Source of the DNA: an uncultured Clostridia bacterium
Lineage (GTDB): Bacteria; Bacillota; Clostridia; Oscillospirales; Acutalibacteraceae
Direction: 5' to 3'
Length of the DNA stretch: 19,840 nt
Assembly: GCA_946187095.1 (NCBI GenBank)
Contig: CAMHPW010000002.1
Location: 1-19,840 of the forward strand
How positions within the stretch are numbered: the stretch's first letter is position 1; each line of letters opens with the position of its first letter. Position numbers and translations under genes: made by a program. A model generated the notes under the pieces. The model made no database searches. It was not told where the DNA came from and saw only the letters and a program-made list of their open reading frames with translations. Below, one piece after another: positions 3,301 through 19,340 of the stretch.

Positions 3301-5174
3301 CCCGTTGTATCAAACTTCACGGCAATATAGGCTTTTGAACTGAGGGTAACGCATATATTGTCAAAACTGTTATAGGTTATTTCATAATCTTCTTCATATG
3401 CACCCCACATATCATCCCATTGTTTGTCGGCACGGACTTTGAATTCATATCTGCCTGCCGCAAGCAAAGGTGTTATGCCCTGATATATGCCTGTTGTTTC
3501 GGTTTCATACAGGGGAATGTCATTATATCCTCCCCAATCGGTCATGGAACCGCATACTCCGTATTTGGTGTCTTCAACGGGTACGACCGGCGGTTCCTGT
3601 CCTGCCGGCTTGCCCGCATACTGTTCGGATTTCAGTACATTGTCCGTGATAACGGCAAAGGATACGGGCCAGATAATGTAATCATCACCGGTCGTGTCAA
3701 ACAATACAAGAATATCCGATGTTTCATCAATAACTGCACTTAAATTTGTCTGACTGCAGTTTGTTCTGTCATATTCTTTTTCATAGACTCCCCAGCTGTC
3801 ATCCCAGGCACCGTCGGCACGGACTTTGAATTCATGCTGACCTGCCGGAACATTTTTGACCATGCCGACATATTTGCCGTCAGTGTATTCATACATGGGA
3901 ATATCCGCCGTCCAACGTGTCATACTTCCGATAATGCTGTATTTGCTTGCATTGATTTCTTCCGTTGTACAGTACGATACAGGCCAGACTATTTCATCAT
4001 CACCGTTTGTGTCTATCGTTACGATGAGGTCAGCCGTATTTTTTACGGTAACACGGCAGTTTGTCTGACTGATCATTGTTCTGTCGTAATTTGCTTCATA
4101 CTCGCCCCAGTACTCGTCCCACATACCGTCCGCACGGACTTTGAATTCATAGCTTCCGGCTTTCAGGTCTTTGCAGACACCTGTATAAATGCCGTCACCG
4201 TCAATATCCGTCATGGGAATGTCATATTTCCAGTTCGTCATAGAACCGATAATGCCGTATTTCATTTCGGGTTCATCTCCGGGTTCATCTCCGGGTTCGT
4301 TTCCGGGTTCGTTTCCGGGTTCATTTCCGGGTTTATTTTCCATAGTCTTGCCCGTATATTCTTCAGATACCAGTACGTTATTCGTGATGACCGCAAAGGA
4401 TACAGGCCATACGATGTCATCATCACCGGTGGTATCAAAAAATACAAAAATATCCGATGTTTCATCAAGCTCTGCACTTAAATTTGTCTGACTGCAGTTT
4501 GTTCTGTCATATTCTTCTTCATAGACTCCCCAGCTGTCATCCCAGGCACCGTCGGCACGGACTTTGAATTCATGCTGACCTGCCGGAACATCTTTGCATA
4601 TGCCGACATATTTGCCGTATGCATATTCATACATGGGAATATCGGAACTCCAGCTTGTCATAGAGCCGACAATACCGTATCTGCCGGGGTTCACTTCTTC
4701 CGTTGTACAGTACGATACAGGCCAGAGTACCTCATCAGGGCCGCTTGTATCGAGCATAACAATGAGATCAGTCGTGTTCTTTACGGTAATATGACAGTTG
4801 GTCTGACTGTTCATTGTTCTGTCTTCATTTTCTTCATAGGCACCCCAGCAGTCGCTCCACGTATTGTCCGCACGGACTTTGAATTCATAGCTTCCGGCTT
4901 TCAGGTTCTTACAGATACCTGTATAAATGCCGTCACCGTCGATATCCGTCATGGGAATGTCATCATCATAGCCCCAGCCCGTCATGGAACCGACTATGCC
5001 GAGGCTATGATGTTCAAAATAGGTGTCAATTTCACCTTTATTGAAATAATCACGGGCGGAAACGGACAGGTTGGTTCCAACAAGCTGTCCGGCTGAAGTC
5101 AGACCGGAGCCTGCAATCACTGCTGCCGAAAGTGTCCAGGCAAGAGCTTTGCGGAAATAGTTTTCTTCTTTCAT
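351..5174 (-). CDS. Large secreted multidomain protein: X25-like carbohydrate-binding repeats, BspA-like LRRs, triple-tyrosine repeats
   Basis: A 1607-residue secreted protein. The ATG at 5174 is chosen because GGAGG lies 8 bases upstream; the longer reading from TTG at 5189 would start inside that ribosome binding site. Residues 1 to about 40 form a signal peptide (KEENYFRK, then a hydrophobic stretch). Residues about 58-680 hold five copies of a ~100-residue module with GSMTxW, AGxxEFKVRAD, WGxYE and DTTGDD motifs, plus a degenerate sixth to about 760. It resembles the X25 starch-binding-type module of pullulanases, so binding of alpha-glucan is an inference. Copies 2 and 3 are joined by a PGNEP/PGDEP linker. 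Residues about 800-1225 are BspA-type leucine-rich repeats (IPDSVTxIGxxAFxxC pattern). Residues about 1230-1607 are four triple-tyrosine repeats ending in YDICVKxKD...YFTVxV. No catalytic domain, LPXTG or dockerin is seen; how it stays at the surface is unknown. Confidence 0.88.
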   Translation of the reverse strand: MKEENYFRKALAWTLSAAVIAGSGLTSAGQLVGTNLSVSARDYFNKGEIDTYFEHHSLGIVGSMTGWGYDDDIPMTDIDGDGIYTGICKNLKAGSYEFKVRADNTWSDCWGAYEENEDRTMNSQTNCHITVKNTTDLIVMLDTSGPDEVLWPVSYCTTEEVNPGRYGIVGSMTSWSSDIPMYEYAYGKYVGICKDVPAGQHEFKVRADGAWDDSWGVYEEEYDRTNCSQTNLSAELDETSDIFVFFDTTGDDDIVWPVSFAVITNNVLVSEEYTGKTMENKPGNEPGNEPGNEPGDEPGDEPEMKYGIIGSMTNWKYDIPMTDIDGDGIYTGVCKDLKAGSYEFKVRADGMWDEYWGEYEANYDRTMISQTNCRVTVKNTADLIVTIDTNGDDEIVWPVSYCTTEEINASKYSIIGSMTRWTADIPMYEYTDGKYVGMVKNVPAGQHEFKVRADGAWDDSWGVYEKEYDRTNCSQTNLSAVIDETSDILVLFDTTGDDYIIWPVSFAVITDNVLKSEQYAGKPAGQEPPVVPVEDTKYGVCGSMTDWGGYNDIPLYETETTGIYQGITPLLAAGRYEFKVRADKQWDDMWGAYEEDYEITYNSFDNICVTLSSKAYIAVKFDTTGDDKTLWSVSYAVVTEPADEYEWVYAGAPDNILSRKRCNINGEMFFMYETEDNVFIGHTLGHSTGNNRQFKVYGDSLLRDFYHISEKNCSFAVTIPQGNYSPYHFYAKLDMSDLESPLSYAVAENEDDDLEWIAITENDVVTEFEDDIFRYLLKRDGTAVLTDFLMDFTIFDEEKQEIDVVIPNEVNGHKVTEIGEEAFYQSYGYYDYINIVIPDSVTTIGRKAFYCFYPLKSIVMADSVTNIGSSAFESCTNLENVVMSKNITIISDYAFEDCQKLKNITIPDSVTKIKYRAFSYCKSLKSLNFSDNITELNIDCIYGCSGLTDLTLNCNPAQVYIYDSIMTLKNLTNLTIGTGKQKVSLNWLGSSPKLKTVTLGDNAYLDSAFLECENIENFFVSENNPNYSAENGILFNKTKTQLIRYPPARQGVFTIPENVNALCSNAFDNCKYLTEINIPENVAYLGEYQKFDYGYYDYSAYYPVFFNCIRLRNINVSENNPNYSSKDGILFNKDKTLILRFPTTKRGSYTVPKNIAYLACGSFNKTKLSDITIHNDIEIYHNPNEFYAGGTYIDHVFSSNSGLIIKAEEGSPAHQYAKDCNIPCEFLFTNKSEVSAKRIVLGQSITVNANADYGDGNYTYAVYYKQSSGKKWTIKQDYSSNTSVQIKPSYAVNYDICVKAKDGTGKVSAKYFTVQVLNKLENTSYISSDTIFKGDSVYVYPSSAGGFYSGYEWNRNYQYSVLYKNASSQKWTVKNEYTYMNGYYYSCETITPANAGDYDICVKVKDEAGTVEKRYFTVHVKKIEPLTNESTVSASNVTLGNTVTVNCRAKGEREYYEYQVLYKQASQSKWTTAQDFSTNDTVKFQPAKATKYDICVKVKGSSGTVVKKMMTVTVFNQLQNTSTISSTEIKKGESVEVKCSAKGGAGDYRYAVFYKQKSQTKWTVQQDFSENAAVSVKPSKATDYDICIKAEDKNNTVIKTYFIVTVV
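3640..5000 (-). repeat. Tandem duplication of a two-module X25-like unit
   Basis: Modules 1+2 (about 5000-4380) and 3+4 (about 4256-3640) are copies of one two-module unit, not four independent modules. Odd copies share YTGxCKxLKAGSYEFKVRAD and even copies share YVGxxKxVPAGQHEFKVRAD. Matching DNA lies at a fixed offset of 738 bp (for example the GGACTTTGAATTCATGCTGA block at 3821 and again at 4559). The first module of pair one has two extra codons (744-bp offset at its start). Confidence 0.85.
4269..4328 (-). repeat. 12-bp minisatellite encoding the Pro-Gly-Asn/Asp-Glu linker
   Basis: Five tandem 12-bp units of the form GGGTTC(A/G)T(C/T)TCC on the plus strand, encoding (PG(N/D)E) on the minus strand. 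They form the flexible linker between X25-like modules 2 and 3. Copy number is likely to vary between strains by slippage. Confidence 0.85.
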
Positions 5175-5209
5175 ACACAAAACCTCCAAATAATAAATTT
5201 TGTATGAAT

Positions 5210-5307: not shown

Positions 5308-5336
5308 TTGACATTAAAAACTCATAATGGTATAAT
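5308..5336 (+). promoter_or_regulatory. Consensus promoter of the 1866-residue surface protein gene
   Basis: TTGACA (5308-5313) and TATAAT (5331-5336) are separated by exactly 17 bp, a full match to the housekeeping consensus. The start near 5343 gives a 5' leader of about 110 nt before the ATG at 5453. Confidence 0.85.
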
Positions 5337-5452
5337 TGTCGGAAGATATTCCTGTATGCAAATCACGCTGTCCCATGCATACAGAGACCATTTCGGAAAG
5401 GAGAAATATATTTGTCAAAAAGACAGCTAAAATGAATAAAGGAGGTTTTTTT

Positions 5453-8400
5453 ATGCAGAAAAATTTAAAAGGCTGCGGCAGACGTGTTTTGACATCACTT
5501 CTGGCGGCACTGCTTGTAACAGGCAGTTGTCCCGTATCACCGCTGATGACGGCTGATGCAGTCTATACCCACCCCGAAGGCGTTATCTCTCAGAAATGTT
5601 TTTACTTTCCGTGGCTGAACGATCCAACAGACGATTTCCTGATGGACGATGATCCCTCTACCTGCTGGAATGTTTCCGCCTATAGCGGAAGTGTAGGTAT
5701 GCCAAACGGAGATGATTGGATTAGCGGCTACTGCTGTGTTGATTTCAACGTAGGTTCCTATCTGAACTATATGTACGGAACTAATGATCCCGATGCTCCC
5801 GAAAGAACAGTCACTCCGTCGGGCATTGTCCTGACAACTGCCGATTCGGATGTATTTGAGGCCGATGCCGTCCCCGTATCATGGACGCTTTACGGTTACA
5901 ATAACGACTCCGGCGGCTATTATGACGATCCCGGAATGGGCGGTAGCGGACACTATGAGTATGATGAATACGGAAACGAATATTGGGTTGATGACGGCGG
6001 CGGTGATCCCGGATATTATGGCGGTTCCTCTACGGAATGGATTTATCTTACTTCCGACACCATGTACTATGCCGAACCGGCTACAGATTATTCGTTCTAT
6101 TTTGACAGCTATCAGGGATATTCACGCTTTCTCTTTGTCGTCGATCAGATTGCCAATGATTCCTGCGAATGTTGCCAACTTGCAGAACTCCGTCTGATTG
6201 GCAGTACAAGTGAATGGGGCAGTATCGGTCTGACATATGACGATACAGACGGCAGCTATTTGATTCAGAGTGCTTCCGATTGGGATACATTGAAAAATGC
6301 CATAGAAAATCAAAGCAGCGATGATATTTGGTGGGACACCAAAACATTCAAGCTCACAAACGATATCACGGTAAATTCCACGATAGGCAGTGAGGAATTT
6401 CCGTTCAATTCCGTTTTTGACGGAAACGGTCATACTATCACTTATTCGGGCAGTTTCACTCTCTTTGCAAGAACCGACAGCAGTGCCGTTATCAAAAATC
6501 TGACACTCAACAGCCTCAACGACAGCGGAATTACCTGCAACACTACGGAATCTTACACTTATCTGGGCAGTATTGTCGGATATAACAAGGGTGTTGTGAT
6601 GAACTGCACCAATAATGCTCCTGTCGTTCTGACAGGCAATGACGACGTTGAAAACTGCTGTACAGGCGGTATTGTCGGATTCAACTACAACGGCAAGATC
6701 ATCAACTGCGTCAACAATGCCAATGTAACGGGATTTCAGAAAGTCGGTGGCATTGTCGGATATGATTACAGTGATTTTCAGATGTACACAGGCAGTACGG
6801 CTGTCATAGGCTGTACCAACAACGGCTGTGTTGCATTGAGTATTGATTCACCACAGGAAGGTGATTGCTGCGGCGGCATTATCGGTTATCTTGGCTGCGC
6901 TGATGATTCATCGGGTAATGAAGAAATCAAGCATCATGTCGTTGCCAACGTCACACGGCATGATAATATTATCGGCGGCTGCAATAACGAGAATTACAGT
7001 GCAAATATCTCGAATTTTGATGTACGCTGCAACTACACTACCGATGAAAATGCCGTGGAAACAACGGAAATCGGCGGTCTTTATAGAGCCCTGATGTTGG
7101 ATATCGCCCAAAACCTGTCGATAGAATTCCCGAGCCTGGCAGTTTTCATTGACGACTATATCGGACAAACTACACTTGCCGATGTACGTGAGGACTATTC
7201 AAGATTTACGCTCGTTGAACACCCGGATTATTATTTCGGAAACGGCGAAACCGTATGGCTTGACATAACATATAACGGTGATACTCCCGATGGTTACAGA
7301 TATGTACAGGGAAACACTGCAGGCAATTTCACAGAGGGAAATTTGTCGGACACTTACGGATATTATGACGGAAATAACACAGATACATGGTATTATGCAG
7401 ACATACCGTCCTCACTCAGCGGCATGGTGACAGTAGAGCCTTATTCACAGATGAGTGAAAGCACCATTACATTCAACACCAACGGCGGAAGTACCGTTTC
7501 TCCCATCACTCAGGCTGTCGGCACAGCAGTAACCGCCCCTGCAAATCCCACAAAAGAGGGATATACTTTTGACGGCTGGGAACCCGAACTCCCCGAAACG
7601 ATGCCTGCAAACGATATGACCGTAACAGCCAAATGGAAAGCCAATCGCTACACCATTACGTTTGACACAGCCGGCGGTACGGCACTTGCTCCCATCACAA
7701 AGGAATACGGCGAAACAATAACCGCCCCCGAAAATCCCACAAAAACAGGCTATACTTTTGCAGGTTGGAGCAATGAAATTCCCTCCACCATGCCTGCCGA
7801 AAATATCACAATTACAGCAAATTGGACTGTCAATCAGTATACCATCACATTTGATACGAACGGTGGCAGTACCGTAGATTCCATCACACAGGATTACGGC
7901 ACAGCCGTAACCGCCCCCGAAAATCCCACAAAAACAGGCTATACTTTTGCAGGTTGGAACAATGAAATTCCCTCCACCATGCCTGCCGAAAATATAACCA
8001 TTACGGCAAACTGGACTGTCAATCAGTACACCATTACATTTGACACCAACGGCGGCAGTGAAATTCCTGCTATCACACAGGATTACGGCACAGCAGTGAC
8101 TGCCCCCGAAAATCCCACAAAAGAGGGTTATACCTTTACAGGCTGGGATAAAGCAATTCCCACAACTATGCCTGCCGAAGATATGACCATTACGGCACAT
8201 TGGGCAGTCAATCCCCACACTGTCACATTCAAAAATGATGACGGAAGTGTAATTTCAACCGTTACACGGGACTATGGCGAAACAATTACACCGCCTGCCG
8301 CTCCCGAAAAAGAGGGTTATACCTTTGCGGGCTGGAATCCCGAACTTCCCACTACCATGCCTGATGAAGATATCACGGTAACGGCACAGTGGACACCCAA

Positions 8401-11053
8401 ACAATATACCATCACTTTCAACACGGACGGCGGTACAGAAATCGCACCCATTACGCAGAATTACGGCACAGCCGTAACCGCCCCCGAAAATCCCACAAAA
8501 ACAGGCTATACTTTTGCAAGCTGGGATAAAGCAATTCCCACAACCATGCCTGCCGAAAGTATCACAATTACAGCAAACTGGACTGTCAATCAGTACACTA
8601 TTACATTTATGGACGGGGAAACGATTCTCGACACAATCACACAGGATTACAACACAGCAGTGACTGCCCCCGAAAATCCCACAAAAACAGGCTATACCTT
8701 TACAGGCTGGGAACCTGAATGCCCTGCCGCCATGCCTGCCGAAAATAAAACACTTACAGCACAGTGGCAAATCAATCAGTATACCATTACATTTGACACC
8801 AACGGCGGCAGTACCGTAGATTCCATCACACAGGATTACGGCACAGCAGTGACCGCCCCCGAAAATCCCACAAAAGACGGCTATATTTTCAGCAGTTGGA
8901 GTCCGTCACTTCCCGAAACCATGCCTGCCGAAAATATGACTGTTGCGGCAATCTGGGAAGAAGATCCTCATTTTGCGGATACAGAAAGAACTGACTGGAT
9001 AAAAGAAGGTGTGGATACAGGCTTTGACTGGTCAATTTCCGAAGGAAAGCTTACCATTTACGGTGATGGTGGAATGCCTTCCATGCCGTCTGCAAGTGAT
9101 TATCCGTGGGCAAGTCTGGCACAGTATATCACCAAAATCACCATAGACAGTGGCATTATCAACATTGCAGACAATGCTTTCTGTTCAGCGGGCAATATAC
9201 AGTATCTGAAACTCCGTATTGTTTGCCTGCCCGACACAGTGACGGAAATAGGCGAAAATGCTTTCAGCGGTGCAGTCAACCTTAATGAGTTGGATTGGAA
9301 ATATAACGAAGATTTTGATCCCGATGTAACGATCATCATCAAGTCCAATGCATTCAAAGGCTGCGTGATACTTGATGTTACTCTCATGGTAATTCAGACG
9401 AACAATAGCAGCGGTGCGGGAACAGGAGCTTTTGAAGGCTGTATCAAAGCACGCATTGTCATATTCGGTGCCAACGGCGGTACAGGTACACAGGCAGGTA
9501 TTTCGGCAGATGAAAACGGTATTATCACGCTTCCCGTATGTACTTACCATTCGCCCGGTGAAAGATTCGATTTTGCCGGCTGGCTCGTCAACGGTAATAT
9601 CTATTATCCGAATGAAAGCGTTCAGATCAGTGAAGATATCACTGTTACGGCTCAGTGGAAAAAATGGGTGCTTGTTCATGCCTATACAAGAACAAAAACT
9701 TCTTCCGACAGCTTTTATGACATAAGTTCATTTGACATTCCGCATATCAACTATTCCGGCGATACGGTAACGCTGACAGCCCTCAATAAGAGAGCTCAGG
9801 GCTACAGCTTTATGGGCTGGTATACCGTTGTCAGCGAAGAAAACGGCATTGTTACCGCATACGGTGAACTTGTATCGGATATGCTGAATTATTCATTCCG
9901 TCTGGGTGAGGATGACCTGCAGCTGGTAGCCGTCTACAAGGCAAACGAAAAATCACAGCTTAATATTTTCTCTGTCAACGGTGCACAGTACAGAATAGAT
10001 GACAAGTCAACTATCAGAATGGGAAGTTCCCATACTGTTCCCATCGGTACAAAAGTGACCGTGACGGCTGTTGATCCCCAAAAAGTTCTGGAATGGATCA
10101 GCGGCAACAATCAGATCATAGGCAAAGGCGAATCCGTTACAGTGGAAGTGGCAGGTCAGAAAAATCTTTCACTTGTCTACCGTTCGGAAATCCCGAATCA
10201 GTCGTTTGTACAGTTTGTCAGCGACTATCAGCAGGTAATGCAGTTCGATCAGGTATCTTCGGAAGATGATATTATCATTCCGGCAGGACCTTCCAAACTC
10301 GGCTATGTATTCGATCATTGGGTATTTGAGGGTACAAATGACACTGCCGATGCCGAAACTATCAAAGCCAAAATCAGCACAGAATCCGTGATTACGCTTA
10401 AGCCCGCCTATGTTGCCAGCAATCAGCAGTTTACAGTCACAGTCAACTATGTTGACAAAGACGGAAACGCCTTGCAGGAAACCACTTCTGCCTCTGTCAA
10501 TGTCGGAACGACATATCAGATCACTGCACCCGTCATTGACGGAAATCAGGCGGCTTACTGGAAAGACAGCAGCGGAAATATCATCTGCTATGGTGAAAAC
10601 TGTTTCCGTCTGGTCAAGGAAGATATCACTCTGACAGCCTGCTATGTTCCCGAAAATGAAGAAGTACAGGCTCAGCCTGTTATCACATTGGGTGATTTCT
10701 CTGTCGCAGACGTTGACGGAGCTCACAAGATACTGTGTACTGCTACAAGAAATATGCCAAGCACAGGCTATCACGTCAAGGCAAACGGTATTCTTGTATG
10801 CAAAAATCCGGATCAGCTGACAGAAAGCAATTTCACTTATGAGAATATTGACGGAACTGTTATTCTGAATGCGCCGAACAGCTATAACACTATCAACGGT
10901 ACATTTACCCTGACTTTGAACGTGCAGGATGATGATATGCTTGTTGCATTCAGAGGATACATGATCGTTGAAGATTCCGTGACAGGAACACAGAATATCT
11001 ATTATTCTGACATTAAGCAGACAAATTACAGCTCTGTAAATATAGGAGAATGA
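5453..11053 (+). CDS. Giant secreted protein: discoidin-like domain, GLUG repeats, eight InlB-type repeats, LRR segment
   Basis: An 1866-residue secreted protein. The ATG at 5453 has GGAGG 7 bases upstream and is followed by a signal peptide (QKNLKGCGRR, hydrophobic core, likely cut after ADA at about residue 36). Upstream in-frame codons back to 5336 overlap the promoter and are not used. In order: residues about 40-250, a galactose-binding/discoidin (F5/8 C)-like fold broken by a Gly/Tyr/Asp-rich insert at about 147-195; about 265-490, a beta-helix region with GLUG motifs (GGIVGxNxxGxIxNC); 671-1168, eight Listeria-Bacteroides repeats; about 1180-1340, a BspA-like LRR segment (VTEIGENAF); then more divergent Gly-Trp-type repeats (FAGWL, FMGWY, FDHWV). 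The last ~120 residues are a beta-rich domain I do not recognise. No LPXTG, dockerin or catalytic motif is visible. Adhesion or glycan binding is inferred. It is followed 4 bp later by a 43-codon gene. Confidence 0.88.
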   Translation: MQKNLKGCGRRVLTSLLAALLVTGSCPVSPLMTADAVYTHPEGVISQKCFYFPWLNDPTDDFLMDDDPSTCWNVSAYSGSVGMPNGDDWISGYCCVDFNVGSYLNYMYGTNDPDAPERTVTPSGIVLTTADSDVFEADAVPVSWTLYGYNNDSGGYYDDPGMGGSGHYEYDEYGNEYWVDDGGGDPGYYGGSSTEWIYLTSDTMYYAEPATDYSFYFDSYQGYSRFLFVVDQIANDSCECCQLAELRLIGSTSEWGSIGLTYDDTDGSYLIQSASDWDTLKNAIENQSSDDIWWDTKTFKLTNDITVNSTIGSEEFPFNSVFDGNGHTITYSGSFTLFARTDSSAVIKNLTLNSLNDSGITCNTTESYTYLGSIVGYNKGVVMNCTNNAPVVLTGNDDVENCCTGGIVGFNYNGKIINCVNNANVTGFQKVGGIVGYDYSDFQMYTGSTAVIGCTNNGCVALSIDSPQEGDCCGGIIGYLGCADDSSGNEEIKHHVVANVTRHDNIIGGCNNENYSANISNFDVRCNYTTDENAVETTEIGGLYRALMLDIAQNLSIEFPSLAVFIDDYIGQTTLADVREDYSRFTLVEHPDYYFGNGETVWLDITYNGDTPDGYRYVQGNTAGNFTEGNLSDTYGYYDGNNTDTWYYADIPSSLSGMVTVEPYSQMSESTITFNTNGGSTVSPITQAVGTAVTAPANPTKEGYTFDGWEPELPETMPANDMTVTAKWKANRYTITFDTAGGTALAPITKEYGETITAPENPTKTGYTFAGWSNEIPSTMPAENITITANWTVNQYTITFDTNGGSTVDSITQDYGTAVTAPENPTKTGYTFAGWNNEIPSTMPAENITITANWTVNQYTITFDTNGGSEIPAITQDYGTAVTAPENPTKEGYTFTGWDKAIPTTMPAEDMTITAHWAVNPHTVTFKNDDGSVISTVTRDYGETITPPAAPEKEGYTFAGWNPELPTTMPDEDITVTAQWTPKQYTITFNTDGGTEIAPITQNYGTAVTAPENPTKTGYTFASWDKAIPTTMPAESITITANWTVNQYTITFMDGETILDTITQDYNTAVTAPENPTKTGYTFTGWEPECPAAMPAENKTLTAQWQINQYTITFDTNGGSTVDSITQDYGTAVTAPENPTKDGYIFSSWSPSLPETMPAENMTVAAIWEEDPHFADTERTDWIKEGVDTGFDWSISEGKLTIYGDGGMPSMPSASDYPWASLAQYITKITIDSGIINIADNAFCSAGNIQYLKLRIVCLPDTVTEIGENAFSGAVNLNELDWKYNEDFDPDVTIIIKSNAFKGCVILDVTLMVIQTNNSSGAGTGAFEGCIKARIVIFGANGGTGTQAGISADENGIITLPVCTYHSPGERFDFAGWLVNGNIYYPNESVQISEDITVTAQWKKWVLVHAYTRTKTSSDSFYDISSFDIPHINYSGDTVTLTALNKRAQGYSFMGWYTVVSEENGIVTAYGELVSDMLNYSFRLGEDDLQLVAVYKANEKSQLNIFSVNGAQYRIDDKSTIRMGSSHTVPIGTKVTVTAVDPQKVLEWISGNNQIIGKGESVTVEVAGQKNLSLVYRSEIPNQSFVQFVSDYQQVMQFDQVSSEDDIIIPAGPSKLGYVFDHWVFEGTNDTADAETIKAKISTESVITLKPAYVASNQQFTVTVNYVDKDGNALQETTSASVNVGTTYQITAPVIDGNQAAYWKDSSGNIICYGENCFRLVKEDITLTACYVPENEEVQAQPVITLGDFSVADVDGAHKILCTATRNMPSTGYHVKANGILVCKNPDQLTESNFTYENIDGTVILNAPNSYNTINGTFTLTLNVQDDDMLVAFRGYMIVEDSVTGTQNIYYSDIKQTNYSSVNIGE
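7463..8956 (+). repeat. Eight tandem InlB B-repeat / Flg_new-type units (about 63 codons each)
   Basis: Eight in-frame units of about 189 bp, each coding YTITFDTNGG...ITQDYGTAVTAP, then NPTKTGYTFxGW, PxTMPAE and ITANW. Units 2 to 4 and 8 are nearly identical over long stretches of DNA; units 5 and 7 are the most diverged. Such arrays are typical of surface adhesins and can change length by recombination. Confidence 0.9.
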
Positions 11054-11212: not shown

Positions 11213-11262
11213 GACCGGACAGTTGAAAAAAGACTGTCCGGTCTTTGATTTTTTCTTTTTTT
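11213..11262 (+). terminator. Rho-independent terminator of the 1866-residue protein operon
   Basis: A perfect 11-bp GC-rich stem (GACCGGACAGT at 11213-11223 with ACTGTCCGGTC at 11233-11243), a 9-nt loop and a T-rich tail to 11262. It ends the transcript carrying the giant protein and the 43-residue peptide. Confidence 0.92.
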
Positions 11263-11272
11263 GTGCTATAAT
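11245..11272 (+). promoter_or_regulatory. Promoter of the 525-residue triple-tyrosine protein, embedded in the terminator T-tract
   Basis: TTGATT (11245-11250), a 16-bp spacer and TATAAT (11267-11272) preceded by TG at 11264-11265, making an extended -10. Predicted start near 11279, about 25 bp before the ATG. The -35 lies within the T-rich tail of the upstream terminator. Confidence 0.7.
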
Positions 11273-11303
11273 ATACGAAATGGATATCAAGGGGGAATCT
11301 TTC

Positions 11304-12881
11304 ATGAAAAATCTCGGAAAAAAAATACTGACCGTCATGCTTTCGGCAGTTATGTTTACTTCATTCATGCCGTCGGTGTCGGCAGACAACAATGTTTATG
11401 CCTATGCACAGGAATTTTCCGTTTCGGCAGAAATGGAACAGGATATATTTACCGTGGGACAGGAAATTCGGGTGCGTGCACAGGCAGAGGGCGGCTATAT
11501 GGGAGAACAAGACAAGTATCTCTACAAATTTGAGTATTATCCCGTGAAAAACAACAGTCAGTGGCTTACCTTGCAGGATTTCGGCACATCACAGGAAATG
11601 ACACTTGTTTTCAGTGAGGCAGGAAACTATTATTTCAGAACCACTGCCAAAGATGCAAAGGGCTATACGGTTTCCAACAATCGCATTATTCAGGTATATA
11701 ACGGAAATGTCAATACAACGGAAATTTCTTCCCAAAGTATTATGACAGGCGAAACGCTCGTTATATATCCGTCTTTTGAAACGGATATTCCCGATAACAA
11801 TGACGGCTATGTCTACTACAGATACAAAAAATCGTCCGAAAGTGATAATCACTGGACAGAGAGCTACTCTCAGACGATGGATAAGATCGAACTGCAGTTT
11901 TCCGACAGCGGTATTTATGACCTTGAAGTAATGCCGATCCTTTACTATGGCGATATGCAGGCAAAACGGTTTTCCGTTACCATTCTTTCTCCGCTGAAAA
12001 ATCTGTCCGTGATATCCGACAGCGTGGTCACACAAGGGAAAAGCATATCCGCAAAGGCTTTGGCAGAAGGTGGAAAAACACCGTACAAATATGCCTGCTA
12101 CTATAGAAAAAAAGGAACGGAAAAATGGAGTTCAAAAGGCAGTTTCGGGACGATCTCCGAATTTACGGTAACACCCGCTTCCGTCGGCACTTATGAAATA
12201 TGCCTGAAAGTAAAAGATGCAGACGGCACGATCGAAAAGAAATATTTTAATATAACAGTAACGGAAAAATTACAGAATATTTCAGCTATGAAAAACGGCA
12301 GTACCGAAAAATCAGATACACTTGATATCGCTTACGGTGATAAAATCCGTATCTGCGGACGTTCCACAGGCGGAAAAACTCCCGTGACATACACCTATTT
12401 CTGTAAATTTTCTTCCGATACAAAGTGGACAAACCTGAAACCGTCCCCCGAAACGGACTATACAGATATTACTTTCAAAAGAATCGGCACCTATGACATA
12501 TGCGTTAAAGTCAAAGATTCGGAAGGAACTCTTGTCAAAAAATATATGACAGTCAATGTCAGCCCCGCTGTGCAGGAACTCAAAAATACCTCTGTTCTTT
12601 CCAATAAAGACGGAACCGTCAAAGGAGATGAAATTATCATCAAAGCAGGCGACACTTTCAAAATACTTCCCGATTCGACAGGCGGAAATGCTCCCATCAG
12701 TTACATTTGCTATTACAAAGCGGAAAACAATTCCAAATGGTCGAGAGCCGCTTTGGATACAGAAAATTCAGTGTCACGGGTAACACCCCAAAAAACAGGA
12801 AAATACAGTGTCTGTGTCTACGCCAAAGATCATTCCGGAAATCTTGTAAAAAAATATATGAGTGTAACAGTATCGAAATAA
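11304..12881 (+). CDS. Secreted protein made of five triple-tyrosine-type repeats
   Basis: A 525-residue secreted protein. The ATG at 11304 has GGGGG 8 bases upstream and is followed directly by a signal peptide (KNLGKK, hydrophobic core, SVSA at about residues 26-29). Earlier in-frame codons from 11223 lie in the terminator and promoter. The rest is five ~90-residue beta-sandwich repeats of the Y_Y_Y type: about 35-130, 131-225, 226-318, 319-420 and 421-525. The later ones keep the signature of a Tyr-rich strand (YKYACYY, YTYFCKF, YICYYK), a Lys-Trp turn and a final G-TYDICVKVKD...KKYMTV. The first two are more diverged. It is homologous to the last 380 residues of the 1607-residue protein encoded 6 kb away. 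There is no anchor or enzyme domain, so a binding or scaffold role is an inference. Confidence 0.87.
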   Translation: MKNLGKKILTVMLSAVMFTSFMPSVSADNNVYAYAQEFSVSAEMEQDIFTVGQEIRVRAQAEGGYMGEQDKYLYKFEYYPVKNNSQWLTLQDFGTSQEMTLVFSEAGNYYFRTTAKDAKGYTVSNNRIIQVYNGNVNTTEISSQSIMTGETLVIYPSFETDIPDNNDGYVYYRYKKSSESDNHWTESYSQTMDKIELQFSDSGIYDLEVMPILYYGDMQAKRFSVTILSPLKNLSVISDSVVTQGKSISAKALAEGGKTPYKYACYYRKKGTEKWSSKGSFGTISEFTVTPASVGTYEICLKVKDADGTIEKKYFNITVTEKLQNISAMKNGSTEKSDTLDIAYGDKIRICGRSTGGKTPVTYTYFCKFSSDTKWTNLKPSPETDYTDITFKRIGTYDICVKVKDSEGTLVKKYMTVNVSPAVQELKNTSVLSNKDGTVKGDEIIIKAGDTFKILPDSTGGNAPISYICYYKAENNSKWSRAALDTENSVSRVTPQKTGKYSVCVYAKDHSGNLVKKYMSVTVSK

Positions 12882-12959: not shown

Positions 12960-13295
12960 TTATTTTGAAATTTTTTCTATCTCTGCCGATATGATGTCGA
13001 TAACCTTATCAAGAATATCATCGGGGATTCTCTCTACAAAAATATGCGGTCTTGAATTGAGGTCAAGTGTTCTGATATGTTCGCATAAAATAACTCCGGT
13101 TGTCTTTGTACGGCTGTCAAGAGAAACGTGCAGAGGAAATTTATTATCGGTATTTGTGATAGGGCATACAACAGCTAATTTCGTTTGTGTCTGAAAAATA
13201 TCGTTGCTGACGACCAATGCAGGACGGTATCCCGCTTGTTCGTGTCCCATCTGCGGATTAAAACTGACTTTGATGATATCTCCCTGTTTTACCAT
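12960..13295 (-). CDS. mazF: MazF-family endoribonuclease toxin
   Basis: A 111-residue protein of usual MazF/PemK length. It should cleave single-stranded mRNA at short sequence motifs in the cytoplasm and stall growth when freed from its antitoxin. It begins VKQGDIIKVSFNPQMGHEQ, the first beta strand and loop of the fold, then AGYRPALVVSND. Arg24 and Thr47 (in CPITN) sit where MazF proteins carry their catalytic Arg and Ser/Thr. The start ATG at 13295 is inside the end of mazE (7-bp overlap, ATGGTAA), with GGGGG 7 bases upstream, so the two genes are translationally coupled. The family and pairing are clear; the cleavage motif cannot be read from sequence. Confidence 0.95.
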   Translation of the reverse strand: MVKQGDIIKVSFNPQMGHEQAGYRPALVVSNDIFQTQTKLAVVCPITNTDNKFPLHVSLDSRTKTTGVILCEHIRTLDLNSRPHIFVERIPDDILDKVIDIISAEIEKISK

Positions 13296-13534
13296 ACTTC
13301 TTCCCCCATCGGCTTACCCCAGTCAATTTCTTCGGGAGTATAATCTCCCTTATACCCCTCAAATAACTCAGCGATATTTTTATGATTTTTCGTGTCGGCT
13401 TTCTCAATGATAATTTTATTATCCTGCGTTTTGATTTCTATCTGTTCATTGACACTCCATTTCAGAAGGTCAAGAAGATATTTTGGCAGTCTGATACCTT
13501 GACTGTTGCCCCATTTTTGAATATTGGTTGTCAT
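13289..13534 (-). CDS. mazE: MazE-family antitoxin (SpoVT/AbrB DNA-binding domain)
   Basis: An 81-residue antitoxin. The N-terminus carries the swapped-hairpin AbrB signature: IQKWGNSQGIRLPKYLLDLL (residues 5-24), followed by Val/Ile-rich strands to about 45. The acidic tail (EEIDWGKPMGEEVW) is the usual toxin-binding segment that would lie across the MazF groove. ATG at 13534 has AAGGAG about 9 bases upstream. It overlaps mazF by 7 bp. Such antitoxins repress their own promoter; two 11-bp direct repeats overlap the -10 here. Confidence 0.93.
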   Translation of the reverse strand: MTTNIQKWGNSQGIRLPKYLLDLLKWSVNEQIEIKTQDNKIIIEKADTKNHKNIAELFEGYKGDYTPEEIDWGKPMGEEVW

Positions 13535-13773: not shown

Positions 13774-16700
13774 ATGAAAATTAATTTTTTGCATATATCC
13801 GACATTCATTGTGGATATAATAATTATACCGTGAGCAACATGAGAGAAAAAATGTCATCTGATATCAGTAAATTCATAAGTGAAAAAAATCAGAAAATTG
13901 ACTATATATTTATTACAGGGGATTTAAAATACGGTAAAAATAATCCTGATACATACCCTGAAAGTACCCTTGAATTTATTCAAACTCTTCAGCGTTCATT
14001 CAATGTTAAGGCTGAAAATACATTTGTTGTCCCGGGAAATCATGACCTTACAAGAGGTTTTATACGAGATGCTGCCATTAGAAATATGAAAGAAAACTAT
14101 TCTTCTCTTAATGGTATCATAAATGTTGAGTATCTAAATGCACTTTTTCCAACAATCGATAAATTCAAAGAAATATATAAAAATATCTGCGGCAGAACTT
14201 ATGAGAAGAATCATTTTTATCTGGATGTAGGTTCATTCAATATTATTCACTTAAATACAGCTCTTATTTGTGGTGAACAAAATATTCAAAATGAAGACGG
14301 TTCACTGATTTTGGGAATGTCATTGTTGAAAGAAGCATTAAATGGCATGGATATCAGTAAACCGGCAATCGTACTTGCCCATCACAGCTTTGACTGTTTT
14401 ACCACAACAGAACAGGCTGAACTTGAAAAATTATTAAAATCCAAAAATGCCATATTGTATTTATGCGGTCATAAACACGTATCTATGATTTCAAATGTTG
14501 CTGTTGCTGAAAAAGATAAACCGCTTCATCAATTCCTATGCGGCACCAATATGGATAAAGACCCGTATCTAGATCGAACCGATATGGATATAGCTGTTGG
14601 AATGTTTGATACAGATACCTATGTTGGCTATTTCGATATTTATAAATGGAGTTTCAAAAAAAGTGGCTGGATGCCTGACAGTGAATTTTCATTTGCCGAA
14701 TCCCACACAACAGACGGAAGAATTTACTATCCTTCCAAATCCGATTGTTTATCTTCCGAAGCAGTCAAGACGTATATACACTATCTAGAATGTTCCTGTT
14801 CTGACATTCAGTTGGACGGTTTACCTGTTGATGGATATGTAGGAAGCAAAAAATTTCCGTTGGATATGCTTTATGTGCCTATTCGATTCCAAAAAAAACT
14901 TAGTTCTCAGGAAGAATTTGAAGAATGGCATGAACGATTTTATTATATTGATCGGTTTAGTTATACGAAAAACAGTAAAGAAACAAATACTATCAGTTCA
15001 CCTATTCAGGAAGAAGTATTCAATTCCATCATTCTAGCTGGACCCGGAAACGGAAAAACGACTTTTCTGAAAAAAGTGGTCAGTTATTATTCATATTCTT
15101 ACTCTCATAACAAGTTTCTCGAAAGTGAAGAAGGCTTTGTAAAAAACAAATTGCTGCCTATTTGGATAAAATGCCGTACTTTGAATGAACGGACAGATTT
15201 TTCAATGATCAATATCATCAAAGATATTCCTTCTTTTGCTGAATTTCCTCCTGATGAAGAATTAAAACAAGCTTTTTATGATATAGCTTTAGCCAAAATC
15301 ACCAATGGAGAGGCTATTATATTGATAGACGGTCTTGATGAAATATCTGATTACAGAAAACGAAATTCATTTATTGAGCAAATTGATACTTTCAGTTCTT
15401 CCTATAAAAAAAGCAGAATTATTATCACATCACGTATTGCGGGCTATGAAGACTATAATAAAAGCGGACTTTCTGGTTTCAAAAATTTTCAGATACAGCC
15501 GTTCAACAATGAAGACATCAGAAAATTGTGTGTGAAATGGCATACGGCAGTAATAAATGATCTTGAACAAACAGTAATCCATGCCAATAAACTGGCAGAT
15601 GTTATCATAAAACATGACAGAATAAGAGCTCTTGCGACAAATCCTCTACTTTTGACTACGCTCTTATTGGTTCAAAGGAGAGTTGGCAGACTTCCAACAA
15701 AACGAGTGGCGTTATATGACGAATCCATCAAAGTATTAATCGAAACCTGGAACCAAGAGGGACATGAACCGTTGGATTCCTCAAGTACCTGGTGTAAACT
15801 AGCATATATTGCCTTTAGTATGTCGGTAAAAGGAGTACAGCAAATAACCAAAGATGAATTGATTACCATTTTGCATGATGCAAACGACGATATGAAAAGG
15901 ATTCTGACATTTGACACAGATTCTCCTGAACAGTTTATTAAAAGGACAGAACAAAGAAGCAGTTTGCTTATCAAAGTGGGCTATGCAAAAGATAATAATG
16001 AAATTTTACATGAAATATATGAGTTTCAGCATCTTACATTCCAGGAATACTTAACTTCTTTCGCAATAGTAAAAAAATATTACCCTCATGCAAAAAGAAC
16101 AGATAGAACGATTGATATTCTTTTAAACATAAATGGACTCAATGCTTTTGATCCCATATCAAAAAAAGAGGAAGTAGTTTTATTGACAGCTGCTTTATCT
16201 GGGTGGGATGCCGAAGATATCGCCCTTGCACTTATTGATAAAATTCAAAATTCCGAAAAAAATTTTTCTGACATTTCCAGACTTTCGATAATGTTAGTCT
16301 TAGATGATTTGGAGTTGGAAACCGAAACGGTAGAAAATCTTCTGACACTCTCCCTGTCGCAACCTTCAGAATATGCACTGAGTGTTTTAGAGGAACTTTG
16401 GGAAACAAAATACAAAGATACAGTAAAAAAATCACTGAAAGAAACCTTTCTTGACTGGATTAAATTACAGCGGAAATTGGCATATTACAATCTTTTTGAG
16501 GGAGCTCCCACCATCTTAGACATTTGGAATATAGATAAAAATTTCAGCAAAAAAATTATAGATAAAATGGAAAAAACTTATTCTGCCGATTCAGAAGGAT
16601 ACGAAGCACTGTCATATGCGGTACTGGAACACATAAGTAATCATCCAAATATGGATAAGGATATTGCACATCCTCTTATAAAAAAAGCACTGTTGAACAT

Positions 16701-17730
16701 TACCATCCAAAAAATTCATATAGTTAAACAACTGTTAAATATTGGGTATACTGATATTATACAGAAAGCAATCAATGACAATAATACCGATTGGATCATC
16801 ACCACAGCATTGAATGCAACGGAAATGTCAGAATTAATTTGGATCGATAAATCCTTTTTGAAAAAAATCAAACAAAAAATAGAAAATGCATATATAAACA
16901 GTGAGAATGAATATGACAAATTATCATATTTTTGCTTACGTTTATTCGAGATGGAAAAAATTCCGGAAGAATTGGTTACAGATCTGTTCAAACTTTCCTG
17001 TAAAAATATTACCTCATCCAAAGCCAAAAACATTATAGATTTATTTCATGGAAAATACGCATCAATTTTGCGTAAAACAGCAGAAGGGGAATTTGCAGAT
17101 TGGATAAATGGTTCAAAAAATATGTCTCCTTCTGTACATATTCTTGATATAATAAAAAATTTTACAGAAAAAGATATAATTAAATTTTTTCTGTCCCACG
17201 TAGACGGTAATGAAAAATCTGTTATTGAGGCAATACAAGCTGTCGATGTTTTTTATTGGTACAAAGATATAAAAAATGTAATGGATAATATTGCTCTCCA
17301 GCAATATTGGGATTTCATATGGAACTGTATGGAAGACAATCGAACAGCTGTAAATGAAGCTGCACTTATATCCTTAGCCACACATTATGATGAGACCATG
17401 TCTTTGTCTCAAACCAAAAAAATTATCAATACATTATGCAAAATCATGAAAAACAGGCAACTAGACAGAAGTACCCTATATTTGTATTGCTATTTTCAAA
17501 TTGAACAATACGAATTGGAAAGCAACGATATTTCAGAAGCAAACAAACAAATGGTTCTTGATGTGTTGTCACATGATTTTTCTGAAATGATGAAAACAGG
17601 AGCCTTCATTTTCGCTGTGATACATAAATTGATAAGTTATTCACAAATACGAGAATTGATAAATAATATAAAACTTGATGAGTTTCAAAAAGAAAAAATC
17701 AATCAGTTAATCGCTGCGGAACAAGAGTGA
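13774..17730 (+). CDS. Metallophosphoesterase-NACHT fusion, NLR-like candidate anti-phage protein
   Basis: A 1318-residue cytoplasmic protein with AAGGGG 7 bases before its ATG. Residues 1 to about 250 are a calcineurin-like metallophosphoesterase with all metal-site motifs: HISDIH (Asp10, His12), TGD (Asp50), GNHD (88-91), AHHS (202-205) and GHKH (232-235). Residues about 415-770 are a NACHT STAND NTPase: Walker A GPGNGKTT (423-430), Walker B ILIDGLDE (516-523), SR sensor (553-554), NPLLLTTLLL (623-632), and FQHLTFQEYL (751-760), typical of the winged-helix end of bacterial NACHT modules. Residues about 780-1318 are predominantly helical and hydrophilic, probably the repeat-type sensor. The family logic is that the C-terminus detects a phage component, NACHT oligomerises with ATP, and the effector fires; here the effector would be a phosphoesterase acting on nucleotide or nucleic acid. 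That substrate is inference. Codon use is AT-richer than the surface genes, suggesting acquisition. It is followed by a MazF-family gene with no terminator between. Confidence 0.88.
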   Translation: MKINFLHISDIHCGYNNYTVSNMREKMSSDISKFISEKNQKIDYIFITGDLKYGKNNPDTYPESTLEFIQTLQRSFNVKAENTFVVPGNHDLTRGFIRDAAIRNMKENYSSLNGIINVEYLNALFPTIDKFKEIYKNICGRTYEKNHFYLDVGSFNIIHLNTALICGEQNIQNEDGSLILGMSLLKEALNGMDISKPAIVLAHHSFDCFTTTEQAELEKLLKSKNAILYLCGHKHVSMISNVAVAEKDKPLHQFLCGTNMDKDPYLDRTDMDIAVGMFDTDTYVGYFDIYKWSFKKSGWMPDSEFSFAESHTTDGRIYYPSKSDCLSSEAVKTYIHYLECSCSDIQLDGLPVDGYVGSKKFPLDMLYVPIRFQKKLSSQEEFEEWHERFYYIDRFSYTKNSKETNTISSPIQEEVFNSIILAGPGNGKTTFLKKVVSYYSYSYSHNKFLESEEGFVKNKLLPIWIKCRTLNERTDFSMINIIKDIPSFAEFPPDEELKQAFYDIALAKITNGEAIILIDGLDEISDYRKRNSFIEQIDTFSSSYKKSRIIITSRIAGYEDYNKSGLSGFKNFQIQPFNNEDIRKLCVKWHTAVINDLEQTVIHANKLADVIIKHDRIRALATNPLLLTTLLLVQRRVGRLPTKRVALYDESIKVLIETWNQEGHEPLDSSSTWCKLAYIAFSMSVKGVQQITKDELITILHDANDDMKRILTFDTDSPEQFIKRTEQRSSLLIKVGYAKDNNEILHEIYEFQHLTFQEYLTSFAIVKKYYPHAKRTDRTIDILLNINGLNAFDPISKKEEVVLLTAALSGWDAEDIALALIDKIQNSEKNFSDISRLSIMLVLDDLELETETVENLLTLSLSQPSEYALSVLEELWETKYKDTVKKSLKETFLDWIKLQRKLAYYNLFEGAPTILDIWNIDKNFSKKIIDKMEKTYSADSEGYEALSYAVLEHISNHPNMDKDIAHPLIKKALLNITIQKIHIVKQLLNIGYTDIIQKAINDNNTDWIITTALNATEMSELIWIDKSFLKKIKQKIENAYINSENEYDKLSYFCLRLFEMEKIPEELVTDLFKLSCKNITSSKAKNIIDLFHGKYASILRKTAEGEFADWINGSKNMSPSVHILDIIKNFTEKDIIKFFLSHVDGNEKSVIEAIQAVDVFYWYKDIKNVMDNIALQQYWDFIWNCMEDNRTAVNEAALISLATHYDETMSLSQTKKIINTLCKIMKNRQLDRSTLYLYCYFQIEQYELESNDISEANKQMVLDVLSHDFSEMMKTGAFIFAVIHKLISYSQIRELINNIKLDEFQKEKINQLIAAEQE

Positions 17731-17829: not shown

Positions 17830-18393
17830 TTGGCACAAAATCAAAAACATAAACGAAAAATAGACGACCCTCTCGAAATATACCAGTTGCAAGAGATGTT
17901 TGTTGATATGAAAGATGTTGTAAAACATATGCCATATAAACAACAGCATATTTTGCGTGAATGGTTCGGTGTCTGGGAGCAATACATATCTTTTGAAAAT
18001 ACATTTGATCCCAAAAAATTGGTCTATTATAAGCGTGGAGATATAGTGTTAGCAGATTTTGGCTATAATGTCGGAAGTGAATTAGGCGGAAAACATTACG
18101 CTATTGTTATAGAAAACGACAACAGCAAAGCTAATAATACTGTCGTTGTAATTCCCATTTCTTCCATTGATCCAAACAGAACCAAACCATTGCATAAATC
18201 CGAAGTTTATTTAGGGAAAATTATTCCCAACAGCCCAGTGGAAAGCTATGCCATGCCCTTACAAATTCGTCCGATTTCAAAATTAAGAATTATAAAACCA
18301 AAAACAAAAAATGATAAGTCATTGAAAATCAAAAAAGAACTTCTTGATGATATAGATAAAAAAATTATTGAACTGTTTACAAAGAAAATTTGA
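17830..18393 (+). CDS. PemK/MazF-family protein with a 65-residue N-terminal extension, no paired antitoxin
   Basis: A 187-residue protein. The TTG at 17830 is chosen because AAGGAA lies about 9 bases upstream; the next in-frame ATG (17896) has a weaker site. Residues 1-65 are a charged, helical extension absent from ordinary MazF. Residues about 66-187 are the PemK/MazF fold: YYKRGDIVLADFG, VGSELGGKHYAIVIEND, VVVIPISS and a C-terminal helix. The position of the usual catalytic Arg (G-x-R-P) reads GKHY (Lys88, His89), a variant I recall from other Firmicutes members; Ser111/Ser112 remain. No antitoxin gene adjoins it. It starts 99 bp after the NACHT gene with no terminator between, so it is probably in the same transcript. 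It may be a toxin restrained by its own extension, by the upstream NACHT protein or by the RNA that follows; none of these is shown. Confidence 0.83.
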   Translation: MAQNQKHKRKIDDPLEIYQLQEMFVDMKDVVKHMPYKQQHILREWFGVWEQYISFENTFDPKKLVYYKRGDIVLADFGYNVGSELGGKHYAIVIENDNSKANNTVVVIPISSIDPNRTKPLHKSEVYLGKIIPNSPVESYAMPLQIRPISKLRIIKPKTKNDKSLKIKKELLDDIDKKIIELFTKKI

Positions 18394-18402
18394 TAAGTAA
18401 TC

Positions 18403-18430
18403 TTGACTTTTTGTTATTTTGTAATATAAT
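18403..18430 (+). promoter_or_regulatory. Strong promoter with no downstream protein gene
   Basis: TTGACT (18403-18408), 16-bp spacer, TATAAT (18425-18430), 10 bp after the stop of the PemK/MazF-like gene. The only thing downstream before a strong terminator is about 130 nt without an open frame, so it marks a small RNA gene. Confidence 0.75.
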
Positions 18431-18475
18431 TGAGTTATAGGTGTATCGCATAATTAAGAATTACATACACTAAAC

Positions 18476-18522
18476 TATACCCTTTGCGGGTCTTATAAAA
18501 GAAGTTATACCCTTTACGGGTC
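18476..18522 (+). repeat. Two 17-nt direct repeats, 30-nt period, each an internal hairpin
   Basis: TATACCCTTTGCGGGTC (18476-18492) and TATACCCTTTACGGGTC (18506-18522) differ at one base, which is in the loop. Each can form ACCC/GGGT with a 5-nt loop. Keeping the stem while the loop changes fits an RNA-level role. Confidence 0.8.
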
Positions 18523-18566
18523 AAAGCAAGAGCAACAAGCTGTTACAGGCTTGTTGCTTTTGTTTT
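18523..18566. terminator. Long terminator hairpin ending the small RNA and the upstream operon
   Basis: Arms 18523-18540 and 18549-18566 pair over 18 positions (two G-T wobbles) with an 8-nt loop; the core is AGCAACAAGC/GCTTGTTGCT and the right arm ends in T-rich sequence. No other terminator follows the NACHT or PemK/MazF-like genes, so it also ends their transcript. It is 10 bp past the stop of the convergent gene at 18577 and may serve that gene too. Confidence 0.88.
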
Positions 18567-18576
18567 GCATAGCATT

Positions 18577-19284
18577 TTAATTTTTGCCGAACAACCTTGA
18601 AAAAAGTCCTTGTTTCTGTTTTGGCTGTTCCGCATCAGACGGCTGATCCATTACGGAATGTTCGGCAAGCTGTTTTTGGATAGTTCCTGCGTGAAGTGCT
18701 TGTTCAGCACTCAAAGCTGTTGTCAAATTTTCCATCGCAACAGTAAGCTGTCCGATCTGTTCCTGCAACAATCGAATTTGGTTGTCTTTCATCATTAACT
18801 GCGTATTAAGTATTGCTAATTGCTCTCTTAAAATTCCGTTCTGACTTTCCAAAAGTAATATGGTTGATTTTTCTGTTTCATTTGGCGATTTAGGTGTTTT
18901 GGGCGTTTTAGGCAATTTTGCAGAAAAATCAGTTTCCGACTGTATTTTTTCTTCATTTTCTTCTGCTCCGTTTGGCGATTTAGGCGTTTTGGATGATTTG
19001 GGCATTTTAGGCGATTTTACAGAAAAATCAGTTCCCGACTGTACTTTTTCTTCATCTTCTTCTGCTGCATTTGACGATTTAGGCATTTTGGGTGATTTAG
19101 GCGTTTTAGGCGATTTTTCGGTTTTTATTTGCAGCTTTATTTGCGAGATTTGTGTTTCGGACAGAATATATTTATTCCCCACCTTATGAAGTGTATCCTG
19201 AAAATCTAATTGTAATATGGCATTGCTGATTGTTTGTTTACATACGCCAAGTTCATCTGCAAGCTGTTTTATCGTCATTTCCAT
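18577..19284 (-). CDS. DUF536-like HTH/coiled-coil protein with Ser/Thr-Pro-Lys repeats
   Basis: A 235-residue protein if started at the ATG at 19284 (AGAGG 11 bases upstream); a GTG at 19305 is also in frame but lacks a ribosome binding site. Residues about 3-50 are a helix-turn-helix (TIKQLADELGVCKQTISNAI, then a short wing). Residues about 55-140 are a low-complexity basic/acidic stretch built from KSPKTPKSPK-type blocks alternating with EENEEKIQSETDFS-type blocks. Residues about 142-205 are a coiled coil (long Leu/Gln/Asn heptads). The end is GLFSRLFGKN, a tail I associate with DUF536 proteins, often found beside plasmid replication genes in Firmicutes. A DNA-binding or plasmid-maintenance role is inferred from the family; no replication gene lies in the window. 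It has its own promoter and is transcribed towards the small RNA. Confidence 0.78.
   Translation of the reverse strand: MEMTIKQLADELGVCKQTISNAILQLDFQDTLHKVGNKYILSETQISQIKLQIKTEKSPKTPKSPKMPKSSNAAEEDEEKVQSGTDFSVKSPKMPKSSKTPKSPNGAEENEEKIQSETDFSAKLPKTPKTPKSPNETEKSTILLLESQNGILREQLAILNTQLMMKDNQIRLLQEQIGQLTVAMENLTTALSAEQALHAGTIQKQLAEHSVMDQPSDAEQPKQKQGLFSRLFGKN
18881..19120 (-). repeat. In-frame minisatellite inside the DUF536-like gene
   Basis: Units beginning TTTG(G/A)CGATTTAGG at 18881, 18971 and 19070 (90-bp and 99-bp spacing, third unit partial). Within them a 9-bp motif of the (GATTTAGGC/GTTTTGGGC) type is itself repeated. Both levels are multiples of three and keep the frame, encoding SPK/TPK/MPK triplets and the acidic block. 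Confidence 0.85.
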
Positions 19285-19340
19285 TTGGACATCAACCTCT
19301 ATCACAAATATATTTTTCTTTCGGGAAAGTCACCAATACT

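Follow-up and report, generated by a model that had tools for sequence, protein, structure and literature searches.

A single gene in a 19,840-nucleotide stretch of DNA from an uncultured Clostridia bacterium (contig CAMHPW010000002.1; the whole stretch is called the window here) joins a metallophosphoesterase (MPE) to a NACHT NTPase, and its product is probably an NLR-like abortive-infection protein. The gene lies at 13774..17730 of the plus strand, starts at an ATG after AGAAAGGGG and is read without internal stop into a protein of 1318 residues, P0001; a whole-genome search gave one copy in the 1.69-Mb, 83%-complete genome. The domains, their intact motifs and conservation, the variety of effectors on the same chassis, the reuse of the MPE elsewhere and the fast-changing C-terminus are observed, and from them we infer sensing, oligomerisation, killing and the substrate.

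P0001 is one intact protein in which a complete MPE precedes an intact NACHT ATPase, and the C-terminal part is a helical solenoid. On the plus strand, the MPE comes first as the predicted effector (residues 1-320, 13774..14733; delimited by Pfam, PADLOC, AlphaFold2, a fold search and conservation). A conserved linker with a motif around CxxIxLxGLPxD follows (about residues 317-420, 14722..15033), which is retained together with NACHT when the effector differs. The NACHT NTPase itself spans residues 423-591 (15040..15546; Pfam and conservation), with Walker A at 15040-15063 and Walker B at 15328-15342, and is succeeded by the remainder of the conserved chassis (residues 592-860, 15547..16353), which includes EFQHLTFQEYL at 750-760 and was delimited by BLAST, conservation and a hidden Markov model (HMM). 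The last part, a helical solenoid and the predicted sensor (residues 861-1318, 16354..17727), rests on AlphaFold2 and a weak repeat of about 100 residues. Pfam places Metallophos at residues 4-236 (E 5.5e-14, over the cut-off) and NACHT at 423-591 (E 5.8e-8, 33.2 bits against a cut-off of 26.7).

The catalytic motifs are complete. The MPE carries the metal motifs D10-x-H12, D50, G88-N89-H90-D91, H203-H204 and G232-H233-K-H235, and the NACHT core has Walker A at G423-T430 with K428 and Walker B as D519-x-x-D522-E523. Conservation was counted over an alignment of 100 relatives, each at least 850 residues long and a few of them without MPE, the MPE sites being counted over rows with a letter. K428, D522 and E523 are each present in 100/100 and D519 in 99/100; in the MPE the counts are 88/89 for D10, 87/89 for H12, 91/92 for D50, 93/93 for N89, 92/93 for H90, 93/93 for D91, 93/94 for each of H203, H204 and H235, and 92/95 for H233. 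The motifs and the Walker A/B core listed by a first-pass annotation of the window are thus found where it had placed them, and are almost invariant. AlphaFold2, a check that it had proposed, predicts residues 1-320 with confidence as a phosphoesterase (mean pLDDT 88.2) and 781-1318 as an almost entirely helical solenoid (pLDDT 80.7). Its helical C-terminus of about 540 residues stands as to the helices; the variable part is shorter and begins near residue 860, because residues 592-860 are still conserved together with NACHT. By fold search the MPE has an SMPDL3A-like phosphodiesterase fold, and a sequence-profile search of the PDB matched Mre11/SbcD only.

Relatives of the same architecture, for which the first-pass annotation had suggested searching, form a sizeable family. 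A whole-protein search with P0001 returned 56 proteins, PF00149 and PF05729 being both listed in 26, query included. By BLAST, P0002-P0005 align with P0001 over nearly the full length (51-60%), P0006 and P0007 align to residues 1033 and 1008 and then weakly (24-27%) near the end, and P0008-P0020 align only to about residues 857-961, after which their tail is different and shorter. Seeding a profile search with ten members yielded 117 proteins; named records among them come from Bacteroidota, Bathyarchaeota, Methanomassiliicoccaceae and (partial) Clostridiales; the sources of MPE-NACHT proteins include both bacterial and archaeal assemblies.

The same NACHT chassis (residues ~317-860 of P0001) also carries other N-terminal domains. 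In a pool of 159 proteins, which keeps duplicates between loci and proteins, an MPE is present in 99, an Mrr-type domain in 29, SIR2 in 3 and something else in 28, under self-chosen cut-offs: a loose one for the chassis (at least 80 bits and 350 model positions), >60 bits for MPE and >25 bits for Mrr, with SIR2 taken from Pfam lists. The chassis, MPE and Mrr HMMs were made from members of the very groups counted; that for Mrr was seeded from 25 of the 29 rows, eight of which were checked for Pfam Mrr_cat. The 28 others include truncated proteins and distant NACHTs, and the SIR2 protein P0141 falls below the chassis cut-off. Frames of L002, L038 and L044 read on the wrong strand were left unused. 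Among GTDB species genomes 50 stretches fit a pattern, and 32 of the loci are named. L004, from an Oscillibacter metagenome-assembled genome (MAG), alone aligns from the start (35% over residues 3-884); the other 31 of the 32 align only from residue 303 or later. When the proteins of at least 950 residues from the GTDB loci and L003 are taken together, 25 of 27 N-termini form one cluster, the exceptions being L004 and the SIR2 protein L003. Mrr_cat is present in all eight scanned members of this cluster, whose sources are Actinomycetota, Acidobacteriota, Planctomycetota, Methanosarcina, ANME-1, Bathyarchaeota and others. In a NACHT protein of an Agrobacterium plasmid, SIR2 occupies the MPE position.

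A chassis tree was built by a quick method from 57 rows (thinning at 60% identity left 67, ten of the 16 'other' rows were then removed, and short rows and the truncated L006, L014 and L032-L035 are left out). The main MPE-NACHT group comprises 31 rows (SH-aLRT 99), and the MPE row P0121 pairs with the Mrr row P0126 with support 100. The MPE label takes three changes on this tree, gain and loss not being distinguished, from which we conclude that effectors have been exchanged on the NACHT chassis. In the MPE tree the stray MPEs of P0121 and P0134/P0136 are placed apart from the main NACHT MPEs, which favours separate acquisitions.

The opposite end of the protein changes fast. Identity over residues 781-1318 is 46, 47, 44, 36, 33 and 32% to P0002-P0007, respectively; for the MPE segment it is 71, 70, 64, 61 and 68% to P0002, P0004, P0005, P0006 and P0007. 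In the C-terminus of P0001 a unit of about 100 residues is weakly repeated in tandem, P0006 and P0007 are shorter by about 100 residues, and by BLAST the C-terminal part differs between subgroups of relatives. Such a region looks like a rapidly evolving recognition surface, and a sensor role is predicted for it. The swapping of modules in both directions, together with the fast-changing C-terminus, fits an NLR-like protein composed of sensor, switch and effector.

The phosphoesterase itself recurs under other switches. The best PADLOC model for P0001 is PDLC00736, the CBASS 'Effector / Endonuclease' (E 4e-48, residues 1-308), which covers the MPE-SAVED protein L043 over its full length (E 4.6e-263). 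In the operon of L043 (L051), a DncV-like cyclase is accompanied by an E2/ThiF and a JAB protein; a cyclase is found in both L052 and L053, and ThiF also in L052. On a Priestia plasmid (L039) the MPE gene adjoins a DUF2326 gene, which matches PADLOC PDC-M68B (3e-37) and, more weakly, LmuB (2.4e-12), and in L055 it adjoins genes for DUF3732 and for MC3 and CTD7, which are Pfam ABC-three-component (ABC-3C) families. An MPE-only search of plasmids matched 11 records, of which four were examined: L039 and L040-L042, the latter with the MPE gene beside GASH/GTPase-associated genes and 23-32% similarity to the MPE of P0001. In the MPE tree (55 rows minus L040, removed for short coverage) the partner systems are intermixed, requiring 12 changes for seven groups against a shuffled mean of 18.8; many branches are weak, 21 of 51 inner branches are unresolved, and L053 is called SAVED by its operon and length, not by scan. 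On this basis we tentatively propose, as a reading that may well prove wrong, that the MPE serves as a general-purpose killing cartridge across NACHT, CBASS-SAVED, ABC-3C, GTPase-centred, COR-GTPase and other switches, and would hit one common cellular nucleotide or nucleic acid.

Three further arrangements were seen. A CBASS effector of 694 residues (L052:6326-8410) joins MPE, SAVED and a peptidase S24-like domain. P0140, from an archaeal (Methanocorpusculum) MAG, is a COR GTPase with leucine-rich repeats that carries the same MPE at the C-terminal end (residues 955-1282). In a genome of the same class as the window, a 924-residue protein (L054:5318-8092) has an MPE and then a P-loop ATPase-like stretch with AAA_16 below the cut-off.

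Neither the MPE effector nor its fusion to NACHT is new. In the relevant sections of the papers concerned, GAP1-N1/GASH systems most commonly use a calcineurin-superfamily phosphoesterase as their effector domain (Kaur et al. 2020, PMC7159879), calcineurin appears among the N-terminal effector domains of STAND-type proteins (Kaur et al. 2021, PMC8195603), a CBASS review counts calcineurin-like phosphoesterase among SAVED partners (PMC10419184), and DS-8 (DefensePredictor, Science 2026, PMC13092281) is described as a single anti-phage protein of metallophosphatase plus NACHT that loses activity when either domain is mutated. Since these four sources contain such effectors, the first-pass description of the effector as unusual has to be dropped. 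A further paper (PMC10907252) has a domain of metallophosphoesterase type in a different conflict protein. The NLR-like reading of the first-pass annotation is otherwise supported by comparison: P0001 is a three-part protein with an MPE in the effector slot, on a chassis that also carries Mrr or SIR2; the MPE family occurs in CBASS and other conflict operons, and DS-8 is anti-phage.

How close is P0001 to these systems? The nearest of those that have been tested is DS-8, which P0001 resembles in having MPE and NACHT in one protein with intact motifs, and the MPEs are homologous. DS-8 was compared through its NCBIfam model NF053861 (DS8), not through the DS-8 protein sequence: P0001 scores 72.5 bits over model positions 1-242, a match confined to the MPE, and has 1318 residues where the model has 994. 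Seven of nine scanned relatives are listed by the model at 62-138 bits, P0134, P0136 and P0146 being best (118-138 bits); in an hmmscan at E<=0.1 it was not listed for P0001, which we ascribe to HMMER's filters. With a score so far under the cut-off of 790 bits and restricted to the MPE, P0001 is, judged by these profiles, a sister design of DS-8, not DS-8 itself. The bNACHT or Avs-type STAND proteins share the layout of effector, NACHT and sensor, and P0001 has their defining features, an N-terminal effector-type domain, a NACHT over the cut-off and a variable C-terminal part; the difference is that their effectors, where the source describes them (PMC12169576), are PD-(D/E)XK nucleases or undefined, whereas that of P0001 is an MPE. 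The Mrr-NACHT relatives offer a lead, and only that, towards bNACHT clade 6 (PD-(D/E)XK). The CBASS effector of PDLC00736 belongs to the same MPE family, but is joined there to SAVED and a cyclase and here to NACHT; in Pfam, PADLOC and model scans P0001 showed no SAVED, nor did any scanned window protein prove to be a cyclase. ABC-3C/YydB-type systems and DS-9 consist of separate genes with an ABC-type ATPase or HAD partner, unlike the fused NACHT of P0001, and Pfam found no ABC ATPase or middle component in the ten window proteins scanned. The GTPase-centred systems, as PMC7159879 outlines them, share the MPE effector, but their MPEs are only weakly similar to that of P0001 and the switch is a GTPase/GASH.

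What could be the mode of action of P0001? According to the pertinent text of PMC12169576, bNACHT proteins sense with the C-terminus, transduce the signal through an oligomerising NACHT and use the N-terminus as effector. By the same scheme, the solenoid of P0001 would sense a sign of infection, which is probably either a protein of the phage or a host protein that the phage has perturbed, and the ATP-loaded NACHT would oligomerise in response. The clustered N-terminal phosphoesterases would then switch on and cleave a phosphodiester bond of some nucleotide or nucleic acid on which the cell depends, so that infected cells would halt ahead of phage release. The preferred effector is a nucleotidyl phosphodiesterase that would deplete a common nucleotide, with DNA cleavage as the main alternative; a small-nucleotide phosphodiesterase appears somewhat likelier than a DNase.

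Several observations weigh against this reading. The top structural match of the MPE, 9a6c_B, is by its title an integrative model and not an experimental atomic structure. At a lax E<=10 the DS8 model matches 13 of 14 control genomes, with none over the cut-off, so that the score alone counts and not the match as such. Species genomes seldom contain a full-length relative (searches at E<=1e-10): two of 394 genomes matched in the order (the window's own and one MPE only), seven of 391 in the class (the window's own, four MPE only and two NACHT only) and three of 64 in the genus (the window's own and two NACHT only). The flanks of MPE-NACHT genes, available for two loci (the window and L004), contribute little: PADLOC at E<=0.1 gave only a weak mad1 (E 0.0094) in seven flanking window proteins. 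Among six scanned open reading frames around L004, some of which overlap and may not be genes, half carry metabolic domains (GH42, xanthine-dehydrogenase type, MobA-like), whereas the other three lack a Pfam match; PADLOC on three L004 frames gave no match. Finally, the authors of DS-8, in the portion of PMC13092281 that treats its substrate, lean on SMPDL3A and favour a cyclic nucleotide.

The last point leads to a different mode of defence, hinted at for DS-8, in which the MPE breaks down a cyclic nucleotide used as a signal, as SMPDL3A does with cGAMP, and protects by altering the signal instead of killing. We consider it unlikely. CBASS operons with a cyclase of their own contain the MPE as a fusion to SAVED; there, signal degradation would turn the system off, and a cyclic messenger is disfavoured because a CBASS effector that destroyed the signal activating it would put itself out of action. 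For the same reason, namely the occurrence of the MPE in CBASS, the target under the cartridge proposal would differ from the messenger suggested for DS-8. On the NACHT chassis, moreover, the MPE fills a slot taken elsewhere by an Mrr-type or SIR2 domain. These comparisons argue for a killing enzyme, not a signal-degrading one; its substrate may be a nucleotide or nucleic acid.

A housekeeping regulator or an SbcD/Mre11-like repair enzyme would account for the resemblance of P0001 to Mre11/SbcD structures (4o24, E 1.1e-6), for the SbcD model TIGR00619 (30.2 bits, under its cut-off of 77.65) and for the source label of the relative P0086, 'DNA repair exonuclease SbcCD nuclease subunit'. It is nevertheless very improbable: occurrence at full length in one of 64 genus genomes speaks against a housekeeping role, and we rejected this explanation on the patchy occurrence and the domain architecture.

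More serious is the case for a conflict protein directed at plasmids or other mobile elements, or inducing dormancy under stress, although this too seems doubtful. It draws on the neighbours, which are toxin-antitoxin genes and not known defence genes, on a nearby 242-residue protein with a weak match to a plasmid replication model (E 6.1e-5; 23.5 of 85 bits, below the cut-off), and on the SIR2-NACHT relative residing on a conjugative plasmid. On the other side, DS-8 and other bacterial NACHT proteins target phages, as stated in the parts of PMC13092281 and PMC12169576 devoted to them. Searches of mobile DNA with P0001 matched 81 plasmid records, none over 80% of the query and, among the 40 listed of the 81, none aligning in residues 1-198; no relative was found among 18 stretches of viral contigs, phage records gave no match, and a genome-contig scan with P0001 alone returned 42 stretches with no relative among them.

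In the window, a divergent MazF-like toxin (12960..13295, minus strand; PF02452) and a MazE-like antitoxin (13289..13534, minus strand; Pfam) lie upstream, and a PemK/MazF-like protein of 187 residues (17830..18393, plus strand; PF02452) is encoded about 100 bp downstream of the MPE-NACHT gene. What had been taken for two toxin families is therefore one, PF02452 (PemK/MazF). G+C is 32.9% in the MPE-NACHT gene and 32.3% in the PemK-like gene, against 39.4% for the window and 38.0-45.9% for five other coding stretches. Set apart by their low G+C, the two genes may have arrived together, with the PemK-like protein as a possible companion. The defence island proposed in the first-pass annotation was overstated and, on the two loci with flanks, we set it aside as weak, given the near-absence of PADLOC matches in the window flanks and the metabolic domains at L004. 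The surroundings of the Agrobacterium SIR2-NACHT gene include a McrC gene without PADLOC match, an ATPase gene matching restriction-enzyme models (E 1.2e-15) and a HEPN/nucleotidyltransferase gene matching PDC-S09 (7.9e-8).

Between the PemK-like gene and the next one (18403-18570) we noticed by eye a near-consensus promoter-like stretch and a hairpin that has a T run and resembles a terminator. Two 17-base repeats, TATACCCTTTRCGGGTC, at 18476-18492 and 18506-18522, lie 30 bases apart and are the sole two exact copies in the genome. This interval is possibly a small RNA, which, as a guess, would counter the PemK-like protein as a type III antitoxin; an Rfam scan of it gave none at gathering score. 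Beyond it, 18577-19305 (minus strand) encodes the 242-residue protein, which has weak helix-turn-helix matches in Pfam, a repetitive-looking middle and an IgA-binding protein model below cut-off (E 5.9e-7); the contig ends at 19840. Elsewhere the window encodes large surface-type proteins annotated by Pfam: BspA leucine-rich repeats with pullulanase X25-like modules (351-5189, minus strand), Listeria-Bacteroides/InlB repeats with MucBP (5336-11053, plus strand) and a PKD-domain protein (11223-12881, plus strand).

The MPE-NACHT receptors thus emerge as a broad family from bacterial and archaeal assemblies, whose parts have been swapped both ways. They sharpen the question of what the defence phosphoesterases cut, and the prediction is one substrate across the different switches, which would not be a cyclic messenger. 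If the phosphoesterase does act as a common killing cartridge, its substrate, once solved in one system, would be solved for all.

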